This document shows positions 1 through 63,953 of a stretch of 63,953 nt of DNA, one piece after another. The number at the start of each line of letters is the position of its first letter. The first letter of the stretch is position 1. The notes under the pieces are model-generated. The model saw only the letters and a list, made by a program, of their open reading frames with translations. It was not told where the DNA came from and made no database searches. Position numbers and translations under genes: made by a program. Origin of the DNA: a virus. Location of the stretch: the IMG/VR virus record IMGVR_UViG_3300009081_000013, positions 1 to 63,953 of that record; one strand, 5' to 3'.

Positions 1-235
1 ACGCCGCTGACGCTGCCGCTCGTTACGCCGCTGACGCTGCCGCTCGTTACGCCGCTGACGCTGCCGCTCGTTACGCCGCTGACGCTGCCGCTCGTTACGC
101 CGCTGACGCTGCCGCTCGTTACGCCGCCGCCGCTGCCGCTCGTTACGCCGCCGCCGCCGCCGCTCGCTACGCCGCCGCCGCCGCTCGCTACGCCGCCGCC
201 GCTCGCTCCGCCGCCGCCGCTGACGCCGCCGCTGG
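1..235 (+). repeat. 24-bp tandem repeat (AADAAARY codons), start of contig
   Basis: Five exact copies of a 24-bp unit (gccgctgacgctgccgctcg followed by ttac) fill 3-122. Shorter GCC/GCT/CGC-rich degenerate copies follow to about 235. Bases 1-78 repeat 63876-63953 exactly, so the contig ends overlap here and the true unit number in the circular genome cannot be read from this assembly. Confidence 0.95.
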
Positions 236-14609: not shown

Positions 14610-14639
14610 CCCACGATCAGGGGCGCCCCTGATCGTGGG
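14610..14639. terminator. 30-bp perfect palindrome between convergent genes
   Basis: CCCACGATCAGGGGC followed directly by its reverse complement, in the 47-bp gap between convergent genes. A bidirectional terminator is the simplest reading. There is no T-run on the plus strand; on the minus strand TTTTT lies about 12 bases beyond the stem. Confidence 0.6.
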
Positions 14640-39674: not shown

Positions 39675-39703
39675 CCCAGACGGAGGGTTCAGCTCCGTCT
39701 GGG
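39675..39703 (-). terminator. Hairpin after the 39719-40384 gene
   Basis: A perfect 11-bp stem CCCAGACGGAG / CTCCGTCTGGG with a 7-base loop in the 71-bp intergenic gap. On the minus strand it is followed by TTAACC rather than a long T-run, so it is more likely a transcription attenuator or RNA-processing site than a full terminator. Confidence 0.65.
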
Positions 39704-48459: not shown

Positions 48460-48671
48460 ATGGTGCGACAATCAGCAAAATGACCATACTGTTCACCCCT
48501 CAAGCAAAAATAACCATGAAAGACGCCGCGCAGATTCTGACCACCCGCCAACAGGAAAAAAAGACCTTTGCCTGGTGGATAGAAAATAATGACACCTTCG
48601 TTGTGTTGGGAGACACCGAAGACGTGGAGAGCGCGGTATATGACATCCTCAGGTTGGAGGAGTCCTTATGA
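48456..48671 (+). CDS. Hypothetical protein
   Basis: A 71-residue protein from ATG at 48456, coupled by ATGA to the preceding gene and to the recombinase after it. Mixed alpha/beta: an N-terminal strand and helix (KMTILFTPQAKITMKDAAQI), then FAWWIENNDTFVVLG. Not recognised. Confidence 0.55.
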   Translation: MNGATISKMTILFTPQAKITMKDAAQILTTRQQEKKTFAWWIENNDTFVVLGDTEDVESAVYDILRLEESL

Positions 48672-49300
48672 CCGACACGAATCTGGTTCCGAATAGGAAC
48701 CACCCAGAAAAAGGCGCCAAGCTCTGGAAGTCGCCCATCAAAAACATCGATGATGTGGAGCGCATCGCCAACATCCTGCGCCCGTCGGCTCGCAACCATG
48801 CGATCTTCCTGGTGGGGGTAAACACCAACCTGCGGGCGTCAGACCTCTGTGCCCTGACGATAGGCGATGTGCGCGATCTCAAAGTGGGCGACCCGCTCAT
48901 GCTCAAAGACCAAAAGCCCAACCGCTACGTCATCCGCGCCGCCAACAAGACACTGGTGGGGGCGGTCAAGCGGCTGCTGGCGGAACACCCGCGATCAGGC
49001 GACGCCGGCGCGCCGCTGTTCCTGTCGCAGCGCGGGGGACCAATTGAAGTTTCGTCGCTGTCGCGTCTGGTGAAAAGCTGGTGCAAGCACGCAAAACTAC
49101 GCGGCCGTTACGGCAGCCACAGTCTGAGGAAAACCTGGGCGTACCATGCGCTGAACACGTTCAGTGTAGAGTTCCACATCGTCTCCGCCGCGCTCGGCCA
49201 TCGTGACCATGCCACAACGCTCACCTACCTTGGCATTCCGGTGAAGGCGATCAAGGCAGCTTTTATGAATGAACTGGGTGTGCCACAACCAAAGGAGTGA
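48668..49300 (+). CDS. Small tyrosine recombinase
   Basis: A 210-residue phage-integrase-family catalytic domain. Active-site set: R56 (NLRASDL), likely Lys83 in the beta hairpin, H151-x-x-R154 (HSLRKT), H178 (GHRDH) and the nucleophile Y187 (TLTYLG). Only about 25 residues precede the catalytic domain, so the arm-binding and most of the core-binding domain of classical integrases are missing. Possible roles: integration with a minimal site, genome-dimer resolution, or inversion. A candidate site lies at 53278-53306. Confidence 0.85.
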   Translation: MTDTNLVPNRNHPEKGAKLWKSPIKNIDDVERIANILRPSARNHAIFLVGVNTNLRASDLCALTIGDVRDLKVGDPLMLKDQKPNRYVIRAANKTLVGAVKRLLAEHPRSGDAGAPLFLSQRGGPIEVSSLSRLVKSWCKHAKLRGRYGSHSLRKTWAYHALNTFSVEFHIVSAALGHRDHATTLTYLGIPVKAIKAAFMNELGVPQPKE

Positions 49301-52256: not shown

Positions 52257-52490
52257 AGCCCCCTGTGTGTCATTTTTGATGCTTTATTATACTGTCCAGA
52301 GCTGCGGTGAGCAAGAAAAAAGCAGGCTGTGCCTCGAAAACAGCCCCTGATCGCCACAGAATCTGCGGTGAAACACGTTAAAAAGCCCCCTGAGCGCCCG
52401 TTAATCTGCGGTTTCACCTGCTGTTCTGCGCTAAAAGCCCCTGATCGCCTGTGAACAGGCCGGTTTCACCTGCTGTTCTGGGGCGAGGCG
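52257..52490. repeat. Degenerate repeats in intergenic region
   Basis: Between the methyltransferase start and the HNH stop lie three imperfect direct repeats built from AGCCCCTGA[TG]CGCC, [A]ATCTGCGGT and TTTCACCTGCTGTTCTG. The last block occurs twice exactly, at about 52411 and 52463. No gene is seen. Function unknown; candidates are protein-binding sites or a recombination relic. Confidence 0.7.
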
Positions 52491-52493
52491 GGG

Positions 52494-53051
52494 CTAAAAA
52501 AGCCTTCTCCACCTAAAAATGCTCTGAACATACTGATATGCGGGGCTATTGCTGTCGCACCCCGCCCAATCGAGACACTGCTCCGCTGCCAGGCGGGCGC
52601 AAACCGCGTCATCGAAGTCCCTGTAGTGCCCCAAAGGCTTCTCTTCCCCCATAACTGTAACCGACGCAAACCATGCAAACATACTCCGGTCCCACATAAC
52701 CCCTTTAATCCCGCTGGAGTTGTGCTTGTGGTTGCCAGTATTCCGCTGGTTACACATGTTTGTAGCTTCCCTCAGGTTATCTAAACGGTTGTCCAGCGGG
52801 TTACGGTTGATGTGGTCAATGTAGTGTTCGGGAAAATAACCATGGACGTGCAGCCAGATGAGGCGGTGGAGCATGTATGCTTTTCGATTGATATGGACCA
52901 CTTTGTAGCTGCGGCCCCCCTTGCTGCTTTTCTTGGTCTTGCCAACCTCCCGCCCCACCGCCCCCCTTGGGCCTCTGCGAACGCGCCGGGTCATAACACC
53001 TTTGACTGGATCATAATCAAACAAGGATCGGACATACTCTTGTGTTAACAA
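52494..53051 (-). CDS. HNH endonuclease with AP2-like DNA-binding domain
   Basis: A 185-residue product. TTG at 53051 is preferred because AGGAG lies eight bases upstream. The HNH core reads MLHRLIWLHVHG...YIDHINRNPLDNRLDNLR (about 82-115, given here in parts), followed by NMCNQRN and, at the C-terminus, SGIKGVMWDRSMFAWFASV, the AP2-like segment common in phage homing-type HNH enzymes. A stand-alone mobile endonuclease gene. Confidence 0.85.
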   Translation of the reverse strand: MLTQEYVRSLFDYDPVKGVMTRRVRRGPRGAVGREVGKTKKSSKGGRSYKVVHINRKAYMLHRLIWLHVHGYFPEHYIDHINRNPLDNRLDNLREATNMCNQRNTGNHKHNSSGIKGVMWDRSMFAWFASVTVMGEEKPLGHYRDFDDAVCARLAAEQCLDWAGCDSNSPAYQYVQSIFRWRRLF

Positions 53052-53277
53052 TGGTTTTTCTCCTCTCTGTAGGTAATTAAGCACATTCTACCACATTGGG
53101 GGGTATAAAATAAAGTCCCCCATTAGAAGCTGTTTTATAAATAGCTTAAAAAATTATGTTTTTGATGGCATTGTATTGCGAGACCGACGCTATTAGGGGA
53201 TCGACTTTGGCAAGGGGTACCACCTTATCAGGAACTATTCCTATTAAAGCCCCTGTTTTCCCCTGATTCTGCCCCAA

Positions 53278-53306
53278 CTTGCCAACTATTCCAATTAGTT
53301 GGCAAG
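53278..53306. other. Perfect 11-7-11 inverted repeat, candidate recombination core site
   Basis: CTTGCCAACTA, a 7-bp spacer TTCCAAT, then TAGTTGGCAAG. Perfect arms of 11 bp around a 6-8 bp asymmetric spacer are the geometry of tyrosine-recombinase core sites (dif, att cores). The phage encodes a small tyrosine recombinase. A simple RNA hairpin is the alternative; no T-run follows on either strand. Confidence 0.5.
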
Positions 53307-53410
53307 CGTATGATGTAAGGTATGCTGCTGGAATTACAGGGAATAGTGCTTGTTTAGCTGGTTCGCTGTCCAGAATCAAATGACTTGGCCCGGGAAAATC
53401 AGAATCAGAC

Positions 53411-53534
53411 GAGACACCTTATATAGTAGGCGCTGGGTATCCTGGCGCTGCTGGGCAATCGATCAGCAAGCGCCGGATAAAAGGCGACGAAGTGTCTCAC
53501 GTGATACACAAGTGTCTCATTTGCTCGTGAGACA
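53411..53534. promoter_or_regulatory. TGTCTCA/TGAGACA site cluster
   Basis: Sites at 53411-53417 (GAGACAC), 53493-53499 and 53513-53519 (TGTCTCA, starts exactly 20 bp apart) and 53528-53534 (TGAGACA, forming an inverted repeat with the third). The helical spacing suggests binding of one protein to one face of the DNA. Confidence 0.55.
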
Positions 53535-53600
53535 GTGCGTCATTTTGGCGCACCTTCGAAAGCTATCAGCTCTATCAATAGCACCTATTGAAAAAGACAA

Positions 53601-53617
53601 TCGTGCAATTTGCACGA
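53601..53617. promoter_or_regulatory. 17-bp perfect palindrome, candidate operator
   Basis: TCGTGCAA-T-TTGCACGA, centred 66 bp upstream of the -35 box at 53675. The size and symmetry suit a dimeric repressor or activator. Confidence 0.5.
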
Positions 53618-53674
53618 ATACAGTACGCCGCATCTGCTCTCTATGAATATTTATTCGAAATGTGAAAATATTTG

Positions 53675-53703
53675 TTGACAAGGATTATGATTATGATAAT
53701 AAT
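53675..53703 (+). promoter_or_regulatory. Strong promoter of the early-type block
   Basis: TTGACA (53675-53680), exactly 17 bp, AATAAT (53698-53703), in a very AT-rich context. It drives the run of small genes from 53735. Its spacer differs from the shared-spacer family. Confidence 0.75.
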
Positions 53704-53734
53704 CGACCATACAACAACAGAAAGGATGGACCGA

Positions 53735-53863
53735 ATGAAATGCAAATGCCAACTGTGCGGTTATGAGTGGCAAGCCCGCACCGAAAACCCGAAGTCTTGC
53801 CCCAACTGCAAAAGCTATAAATGGAACAAAGAAGAAGAGAAAGGGGAGCAAGAAAAGAAATGA
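53735..53863 (+). CDS. Rubredoxin-like mini zinc ribbon
   Basis: A 42-residue protein. CQLCGYEW (5-12) and CPNCKSYKW (23-31) form a rubredoxin-type zinc ribbon, followed by a Glu/Lys tail. I chose ATG at 53735, eight bases after AAAGGA. First gene after the strong promoter. Its stop overlaps the HNH start. Confidence 0.6.
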   Translation: MKCKCQLCGYEWQARTENPKSCPNCKSYKWNKEEEKGEQEKK

Positions 53864-63387: not shown

Positions 63388-63953
63388 ACTGACGACCAAA
63401 GAGAACACCACCAAAGGAGACACGCTGTGGGGAACAAACGTGACTCACCGCCTTCCCGCCAGGGAAGACCCTCGCCTCTGCACCTCAACAGTGATTCACG
63501 CCTATGACGATTTGAATCTGGCCCTGCTGCTTAACCCTATTCACGGTGGTTTCGAGCCCTTTAACATTTGGGAAGCAGAAGGCGAGGTTGTGGTGCGTGA
63601 TTGGGGAAAAGTCGGCTGCTTTGAGCTGACGACGGTGCGCCAAATCGGGCTGCCACAGTGGTATGTCGAACGACGAATAGCGGTGTGTGTTGAGTTTGCT
63701 AAGCTATGTGCCGCCGCCGCCGCTCGCTCCGCCACTCGCTACGCCGTCGACGCCGCTTGCTACGCCGACGCCACTCGCTACGCCGCCGCTCGCTCCGCCG
63801 CTCGCTCCGCCGCTCGCTCCGCCGCTGACGCCGCCGCTGACGCTGCCGCTCGTTGCGCCGCCGATGCCGCTCGTTACGCCGCTGACGCTGCCGCTCGTTA
63901 CGCCGCTGACGCTGCCGCTCGTTACGCCGCTGACGCTGCCGCTCGTTACGCCG
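63374..63953 (+). CDS. Alanine-rich repeat protein, N-terminal part (continues at 1)
   Basis: ATG at 63374 behind AAAGGAG. The N-terminal domain of about 110 residues (MKLFKLTTKENTTKGDTLWG; LALLLNPIHGGFEPFNIWEA; CFELTTVRQIGLPQWYVERR) is conserved in a family of phage proteins with Ala-rich tails. After FAKLCAAAAA the sequence turns into Ala/Arg/Ser/Tyr/Asp repeats that settle into exact AADAAARY units at 63878. It runs off the window and ends at 290 once the circle is closed. Function unknown. Confidence 0.8.
   Translation, partial: MKLFKLTTKENTTKGDTLWGTNVTHRLPAREDPRLCTSTVIHAYDDLNLALLLNPIHGGFEPFNIWEAEGEVVVRDWGKVGCFELTTVRQIGLPQWYVERRIAVCVEFAKLCAAAAARSATRYAVDAACYADATRYAAARSAARSAARSAADAAADAAARCAADAARYAADAAARYAADAAARYAADAAARYA
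63878..63953 (+). repeat. 24-bp tandem repeat, end of contig
   Basis: Three exact 24-bp units and four bases of a fourth. 63876-63953 equals 1-78, showing that the genome is circular or circularly permuted and that the assembler stopped within this array. Confidence 0.95.

Follow-up and report, generated by a model that had tools for sequence, protein, structure and literature searches.

A perfect 11-7-11 inverted repeat in a phage genome as a probable core site for a short, element-encoded tyrosine recombinase

Does the perfect inverted repeat that lies between two divergent genes of this virus serve the tyrosine recombinase encoded about 4 kb away and, if so, in what reaction? The DNA analyzed here (the window) is the whole of an IMG/VR record, 63,953 bases in length. 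The repeat, CTTGCCAACTA-TTCCAAT-TAGTTGGCAAG, occupies positions 53278-53306 and consists of two 11-bp arms around a 7-bp spacer (Table 1). A first-pass annotation had described it as perfect and noncoding and both points were borne out; it is also unique in the window, even when up to three mismatches are allowed. The 650-bp gap that holds it separates a leftward HNH gene (52494-53084) from a rightward operon, in which a zinc-ribbon protein comes first and a second HNH protein next. The sole open reading frame that spans the dyad (53146-53379, minus strand) matched nothing in PHROG or in the relatives described below.

The exact dyad pattern did not occur in shuffled sequence (0 occurrences). 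Nevertheless, about 0.2 perfect dyads with arms of at least 11 and a spacer of 5-9 would be expected in Markov random sequence of the size of the window, compared to two observed. With an expectation this near to chance for 64 kb, the palindrome alone is weak evidence and outside, comparative evidence was needed; it is comparison that gives the dyad its significance. Other perfect, GC-rich dyads were seen at 39675-39703 (11-7-11) and 14610-14639 (13-4-13), possibly terminators or chance occurrences.

Table 1. Positions of the dyad, its surroundings and the recombinase gene in the window.
Feature	Position	Strand	Remark
Left half-site CTTGCCAACTA	53278..53288	+	AACT nearly invariant across 38 sites
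Central spacer TTCCAAT, 7 bp, non-palindromic, presumed overlap/crossover region	53289..53295		
Right half-site, minus strand reads CTTGCCAACTA	53296..53306	-	
Noncoding region holding the dyad, flanked by divergent genes	53085..53734		650 bp
Small zinc-ribbon protein gene, first on the right	53735..53863	+	conserved in L004
Promoter-like TTGACA-17-AATAAT for the rightward operon, on the downstream side of the dyad	53675..53703	+	11/12 consensus matches
Conserved block CGCTATTAGGGGATCGACTT, perhaps an accessory site	53188..53207	+	shared with three relatives
Catalytic-domain-only tyrosine recombinase, 210 aa, presumed dyad binder	48668..49300	+	PF00589, phrog_216

The recombinase itself was as the annotation had reported it, a protein of 210 residues with a full catalytic set whose gene ends 3,977 bp from the dyad. 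The window encodes no second PF00589 protein. The recombinase matches this family over residues 28-188 (6.5e-21) and also phrog_216 (2.7e-33). The residues R56, K83, H151, R154, H178 and Y187 are all present, and invariant across 44 orthologues, giving the sequence the catalytic R-K-H-R-H/W set and nucleophilic Y of an active tyrosine recombinase. Its alignment with XerA, XerD and XerH covers their catalytic domains only (XerA residues 108-273). An AlphaFold2 model (mean pLDDT 87.6, pTM 0.81) has no helix ahead of residue 27, and the nearest solved folds are XerA, XerH, the Tn1549 integrase and Cre. Orthologous frames have a median length of 197 aa. The window recombinase is thus a catalytic domain alone, with its active-site residues retained. 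The other genes recognized in the window belong mainly to replication, packaging and lysis.

A whole-region nucleotide search against phages and plasmids gave nothing useful, a search of bacterial genomes with the terminase found no match and the exact arms of the dyad occurred in no other IMG/VR contig. Relatives (L003-L006) were retrieved via the terminase. The recombinases of L004, L005 and L006 are 49-63% identical to that of the window and, in a tree of the 44 orthologues, they group with the window phage in a four-member clade that has 99% SH-aLRT support. The exact window arms were absent from all three genomes, yet each has an 11-7-11 dyad in the noncoding region homologous to that of the window (CTCGGCAACTT-CTCTGGT-AAGTTACCAAG, CTCGACAACTT-CTCTGGT-AAGTTGGCAAG and CTTGCTAACTT-TCTGAAA-AAGTTGCCGAA, respectively). 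The spacer, of 7 bp in each case (CTCTGGT in L004 and L005, TCTGAAA in L006), and the outer bases differ from those of the window, while the half-site is shared: across the four phages, the only departure from CTYGNYAACTW among eight half-sites is at one outer base. Of the 11 possible Watson-Crick pairs between the arms, L004 and L005 keep 9 each and L006 keeps 7. Their dyads lie 1.2-1.8 kb from the start of the recombinase match, compared to 4 kb in the window, where extra genes intervene. The first-pass annotation had taken absence from recombinase-carrying relatives as grounds to drop its proposal; absence holds for the exact arms, but what recombinase carriers conserve is the half-site consensus. 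In the relative G003, a second match was limited to the core (AACTW-N7-WAGTT).

To see the site beyond these phages, a first profile was built from the four phage dyads only, and loci fetched from IMG/VR and GTDB genomes with the recombinase alignment were scanned. The top matches outside the phages were 11-8-11 dyads, many of which preceded a recombinase gene by a fixed distance. A refined profile recovered about 25 bacterial loci, mostly from Desulfobacterota, with the dyad some 160-220 bp upstream of the start of the recombinase match. At scores >24, it gave 24 matches in 25.6 kb of recombinase-upstream sequence vs. 3 in 1.10 Mb elsewhere, and these three exceptions were also within recombinase loci (L047, L051 and L093). 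Since the refined profile was built partly from the same sites, two further tests were run. In the first, which used no profile, dyads whose arms pair at 10 or all of their 11 positions were present upstream in 27 of 105 loci vs. 1.1% of 792 control windows; clades with other arms retain both geometry and position (for example AATCTAAACTA-N8-TAGTTTAGATT in Geobacter). The second used an evenly drawn sample of 297 Desulfobacterota genomes, 18 of which have the recombinase. The exact motif was found in five of the 297, and four of these five have the recombinase: G012, G014 and G018 were previously known, while G157 is a new case outside the training set, in which the site precedes the gene by 144 bp. 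Three loci of the same set (L138, L139 and L145) have altered arms, with position and geometry kept.

The association was not universal. More than half of the 105 recombinase loci, mainly the distant ones, had no recognized upstream dyad. Genome G238 (L135:1055-2202) carries an exact dyad, CTTGCTAACTT-N8-AAGTTAGCGAG, 123 bp after a different, full-length integrase of 331 aa and has no orthologue of the short recombinase at E<=1e-20; this dyad could be the att site of the 331-aa integrase. A motif-first search of IMG/VR returned seven contigs, with the recombinase in one and in none of the six that were new (0/6). Since most contigs found in this way lack the recombinase, the motif alone is weak evidence in viral contigs. 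Five of the six (L127-L131) share one near-identical element with the dyad CTTGTCAACTA-ACCCGGCT-TAGTTGACAAG or its reverse; in L131, this dyad precedes a gene resembling a terminase small subunit. Within 21 kb of a bacterial chromosome (G101 contig 1, 3106815-3128023), the short recombinase occurs four times, whole or as fragments, and the recognized dyad is absent there. From the distribution of the recombinase, our guess is that the host of the window phage belongs to the Desulfobacterota.

Across 38 sites, the half-site consensus is CTYGYYAACTW, with a near-invariant inner AACT and variable outer bases. The two arms of a site differ from each other at 1.3 positions, compared to 3.2 between sites (0 of 10,000 permutations), and 27 of the 50 arm mismatches cannot be wobble pairs on either strand, with no excess of G-U. 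The covariation of arms within a site, together with the lack of wobble bias, argues for a DNA site rather than an RNA hairpin, and the pattern is that predicted for a site bound by two copies of one protein. The spacer is 7 bp in 6 of the 38 sites (the four window-group phages, L028 and L087) and 8 bp in the remaining 32. Both arrangements, 11-7-11 and the 11-8-11 seen in relatives, have the geometry of dif, lox and cer sites, with two inverted half-sites of about 11 bp and a spacer of 6-8 bp. Among cultured bacteria, Desulfatibacillum alkenivorans DSM 16219 has a module of the 11-8-11 form.

From the conserved association between dyad and recombinase, we infer that the dyad is bound by the encoded enzyme. 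This agrees with the proposal of the first-pass annotation that the repeat is a target of the recombinase, which the conserved pairing in relatives makes very probable. The reading we favor, with a probability of roughly 0.6, is that the dyad is the core binding site of the recombinase and that the likeliest reaction is resolution between copies of this single site. In such a reaction, one recombinase monomer would sit on each of the two 11-bp half-sites, strand exchange would occur within the 7-bp spacer and two copies of the dyad would recombine where a circular or terminally redundant genome had formed dimers or concatemers, in a manner comparable to loxP, cer, difSL and difH. Resolution is the likeliest outcome since each genome has one site with an asymmetric spacer and no partner elsewhere; taken by itself, we give this choice of reaction slightly better than even odds. 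When whole bacterial genomes were searched, nearly all had one site for each copy of the recombinase; like the unique site of the window, this agrees with the one site per replicon typical of dif, lox and cer. Two recombinases accompany two sites in G012 and G022. Second sites are also present in G008 and G010, the former exact and the latter with two mismatches. Of the three functions the annotation had offered, dimer resolution is the best fit to a single site, as a predicted reaction. The recombinase and its site together form a module in elements, some of which have a separate integrase. Four observations count against the core-site reading: the core-binding domain that Xer and Cre possess is missing from the recombinase, the window dyad is 4 kb from the gene rather than adjoining it, G238 and the motif-only viral contigs carry the motif without the recombinase, and more than half of the 105 recombinase loci show no recognized dyad upstream.

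Known systems offer close parallels. XerS/difSL of streptococci and XerH/difH of epsilonproteobacteria likewise pair a single tyrosine recombinase with a near-palindromic site, usually near its gene (PMC2731167, PMC5357621). However, XerS and XerH are proteins of about 350-363 aa with a core-binding domain that act at the chromosome terminus on other arms, whereas the window family has about 200 aa and is found in phages and mobile elements with CTYGYYAACTW arms and spacers of 7-8; enzyme size and arm sequence thus place it outside both systems. Like the window phage, phage P1 encodes a single recombinase, Cre, and has one copy of a site, loxP, with palindromic arms and an asymmetric spacer (8 bp in loxP). 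The loxP arms are 13 bp and unrelated in sequence to those of the window, Cre has an N-terminal core-binding domain and, in contrast to P1, plasmid-maintenance genes were not found here. The cer site of ColE1 is 11-8-11 and occurs once per replicon (PMC5357621), but depends on XerC/XerD of the host and on accessory proteins, whereas the recombinase is element-encoded here. The simple (Xer-like) YR class is defined by a core-binding domain followed by a catalytic domain (PMC8138268), a description that the 210-aa, catalytic-domain-only recombinase of the window does not fit. The window system works like those of XerH, XerS and Cre, and is a member of none.

An alternative is that the dyad is an operator, bound by a protein of recombinase fold mainly for transcription control, the targets being the rightward early operon in the phage and the recombinase's own gene in bacteria. 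Consistent with this, pairs of half-sites 18-19 bp apart, one helical turn beyond the spacing in the dyad, reach their highest frequency ahead of bacterial recombinase genes, over the promoter, and the window dyad sits between divergent transcription units. There is also a precedent in MrpR of SPbeta, a repressor in which the tyrosine-recombinase fold serves DNA binding (PMC10516654). MrpR, however, has lost its catalytic residues, has a core-binding domain and binds many copies of a repeated 15-bp element, whereas all six catalytic residues are invariant in the 44 orthologues; their retention sets the window recombinase apart from repressors of this type. The 11-7/8-11 arrangement is moreover that of a recombination core. 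As to position, about 100 bp separate the dyad from the bacterial promoters downstream of it, and the nearest good promoter in the window is 370 bp away. We therefore consider a mainly regulatory role unlikely. Since half-sites spaced by 18-19 bp flank the recombinase promoter, the gene is probably autorepressed in the bacterial modules; no pair with this spacing was found in the window. A tentative extension of the core-site reading, possible though on balance doubtful, is that phages and mobile elements of Desulfobacterota share a self-contained and self-regulated resolution module, whose catalytic-domain-only recombinase would act at the single 11-7/8-11 site and also repress its own promoter, by way of half-sites whose spacing exceeds that of the dyad by one helical turn.

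The first-pass annotation had also suggested an attP core, through which the phage would integrate at an attB site of its host. The recombinase is indeed the sole PF00589 protein in the window and in its relatives G003 and G004, and spacers of 7-8 bp are usual for att cores. In Tyrovirus, perfect 11-bp inverted repeats around a 6-bp core, beside the gene of the phage tyrosine recombinase Gp50, were called a putative attP (PMC9703825); this site, which received its name without a test, has a spacer of 6 and adjoins the gene in the structural module. Several results make integration at the dyad improbable, more so than an operator. Most bacterial genomes have no partner site at <=2 mismatches and only one site per recombinase copy. 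Module copies within the same genome share homology across the site by 43-468 bp (L061/L088, L054/L105 and L047/L051); since homology crosses the site, there is no attL/attR junction there, and an integration junction was rejected for these modules on this ground. The comparison of L044 with L063, where rightward homology begins within 1 bp of the site, would look junction-like alone, but the same-genome module pairs differ. No attL/attR pair was found around an integrated copy in the bacterial relatives. Some elements have separate integrases (a serine recombinase in L105, a 423-aa tyrosine integrase in L065 and a 372-aa PF00589 open frame in phage G006). Attachment at a tRNA was excluded for the dyad, as no tRNA was found in the window. 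Finally, the window group has no HTH_3 repressor above the cut-off, and ParA is likewise missing from the window, G003 and G004. Integration, and with it the temperate or plasmid-like lifestyle that the annotation had deduced, is not supported. The inversion site it had listed as a further option is contradicted by the presence of one site per genome. FimB and FimE are also tyrosine recombinases of about 200 aa without a classical core-binding domain, but act at two inverted sites around a switch; an invertible switch of this type was rejected on finding a single copy (<=3 mismatches).

That the palindrome is an RNA feature (a hairpin or terminator) or a chance repeat is scarcely credible: the dyad strand does fold with z = -3.6, a conserved noncoding block had also raised the idea and about 0.2-0.4 such dyads per 64 kb are expected by chance, but no T-run follows the dyad on either strand, which rules out a terminator, an Rfam search gave no match, the absence of wobble bias and the location of bacterial dyads upstream of the promoter rule out an RNA hairpin, and the half-site recurs beside recombinase genes across phyla.

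Phage genomes often encode 'integrases' of about 200 aa, to which annotation usually assigns a role in integration, so that their phages are marked as temperate. Our data suggest that many short 'integrases' are not the integrase of their element. They also provide a predicted target site for many members of this recombinase family, making its function directly testable. If the enzyme acts alone, the outcome would be a compact recombination system made up of one protein and a defined site of 29-30 bp, with divergent arm variants.

Other features surround the dyad in the window. Within the conserved block, ATTAGGGG begins 86 bp ahead of the window dyad and 56-96 bp ahead of those of the three relatives; across all IMG/VR, the block CGCYATTAGGGGA(N)TCGACTT is confined to the window phage, L004, L005 and L006. 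It may act as an accessory site or belong to an origin. The TTGACA of the rightward promoter is kept in L004. Between the dyad and this promoter (53410-53541) lies a cluster of GTGTCTC(A) repeats, which looks like the operators of a regulator, together with a 16-bp inverted repeat, GACGAAGTGTCTCACG / CGTGAGACAGTGCGTC. The sequence ACTATTCC has three copies in the entire window (53234, 53285 and 53340), all within 115 bp around the dyad. At the ends of the window (1-233 and 63717-63953), there is a 24-bp tandem repeat and an end overlap of 78 bases; with the repeat at both ends, circularity deduced from them could be a repeat artefact. Lastly, repeats were seen at 52337-52480, in the space that separates the Dam-like gene from the HNH gene: a 33-nt unit occurs three times in imperfect form, and a 20-nt unit, CGGTTTCACCTGCTGTTCTG, is perfectly repeated.
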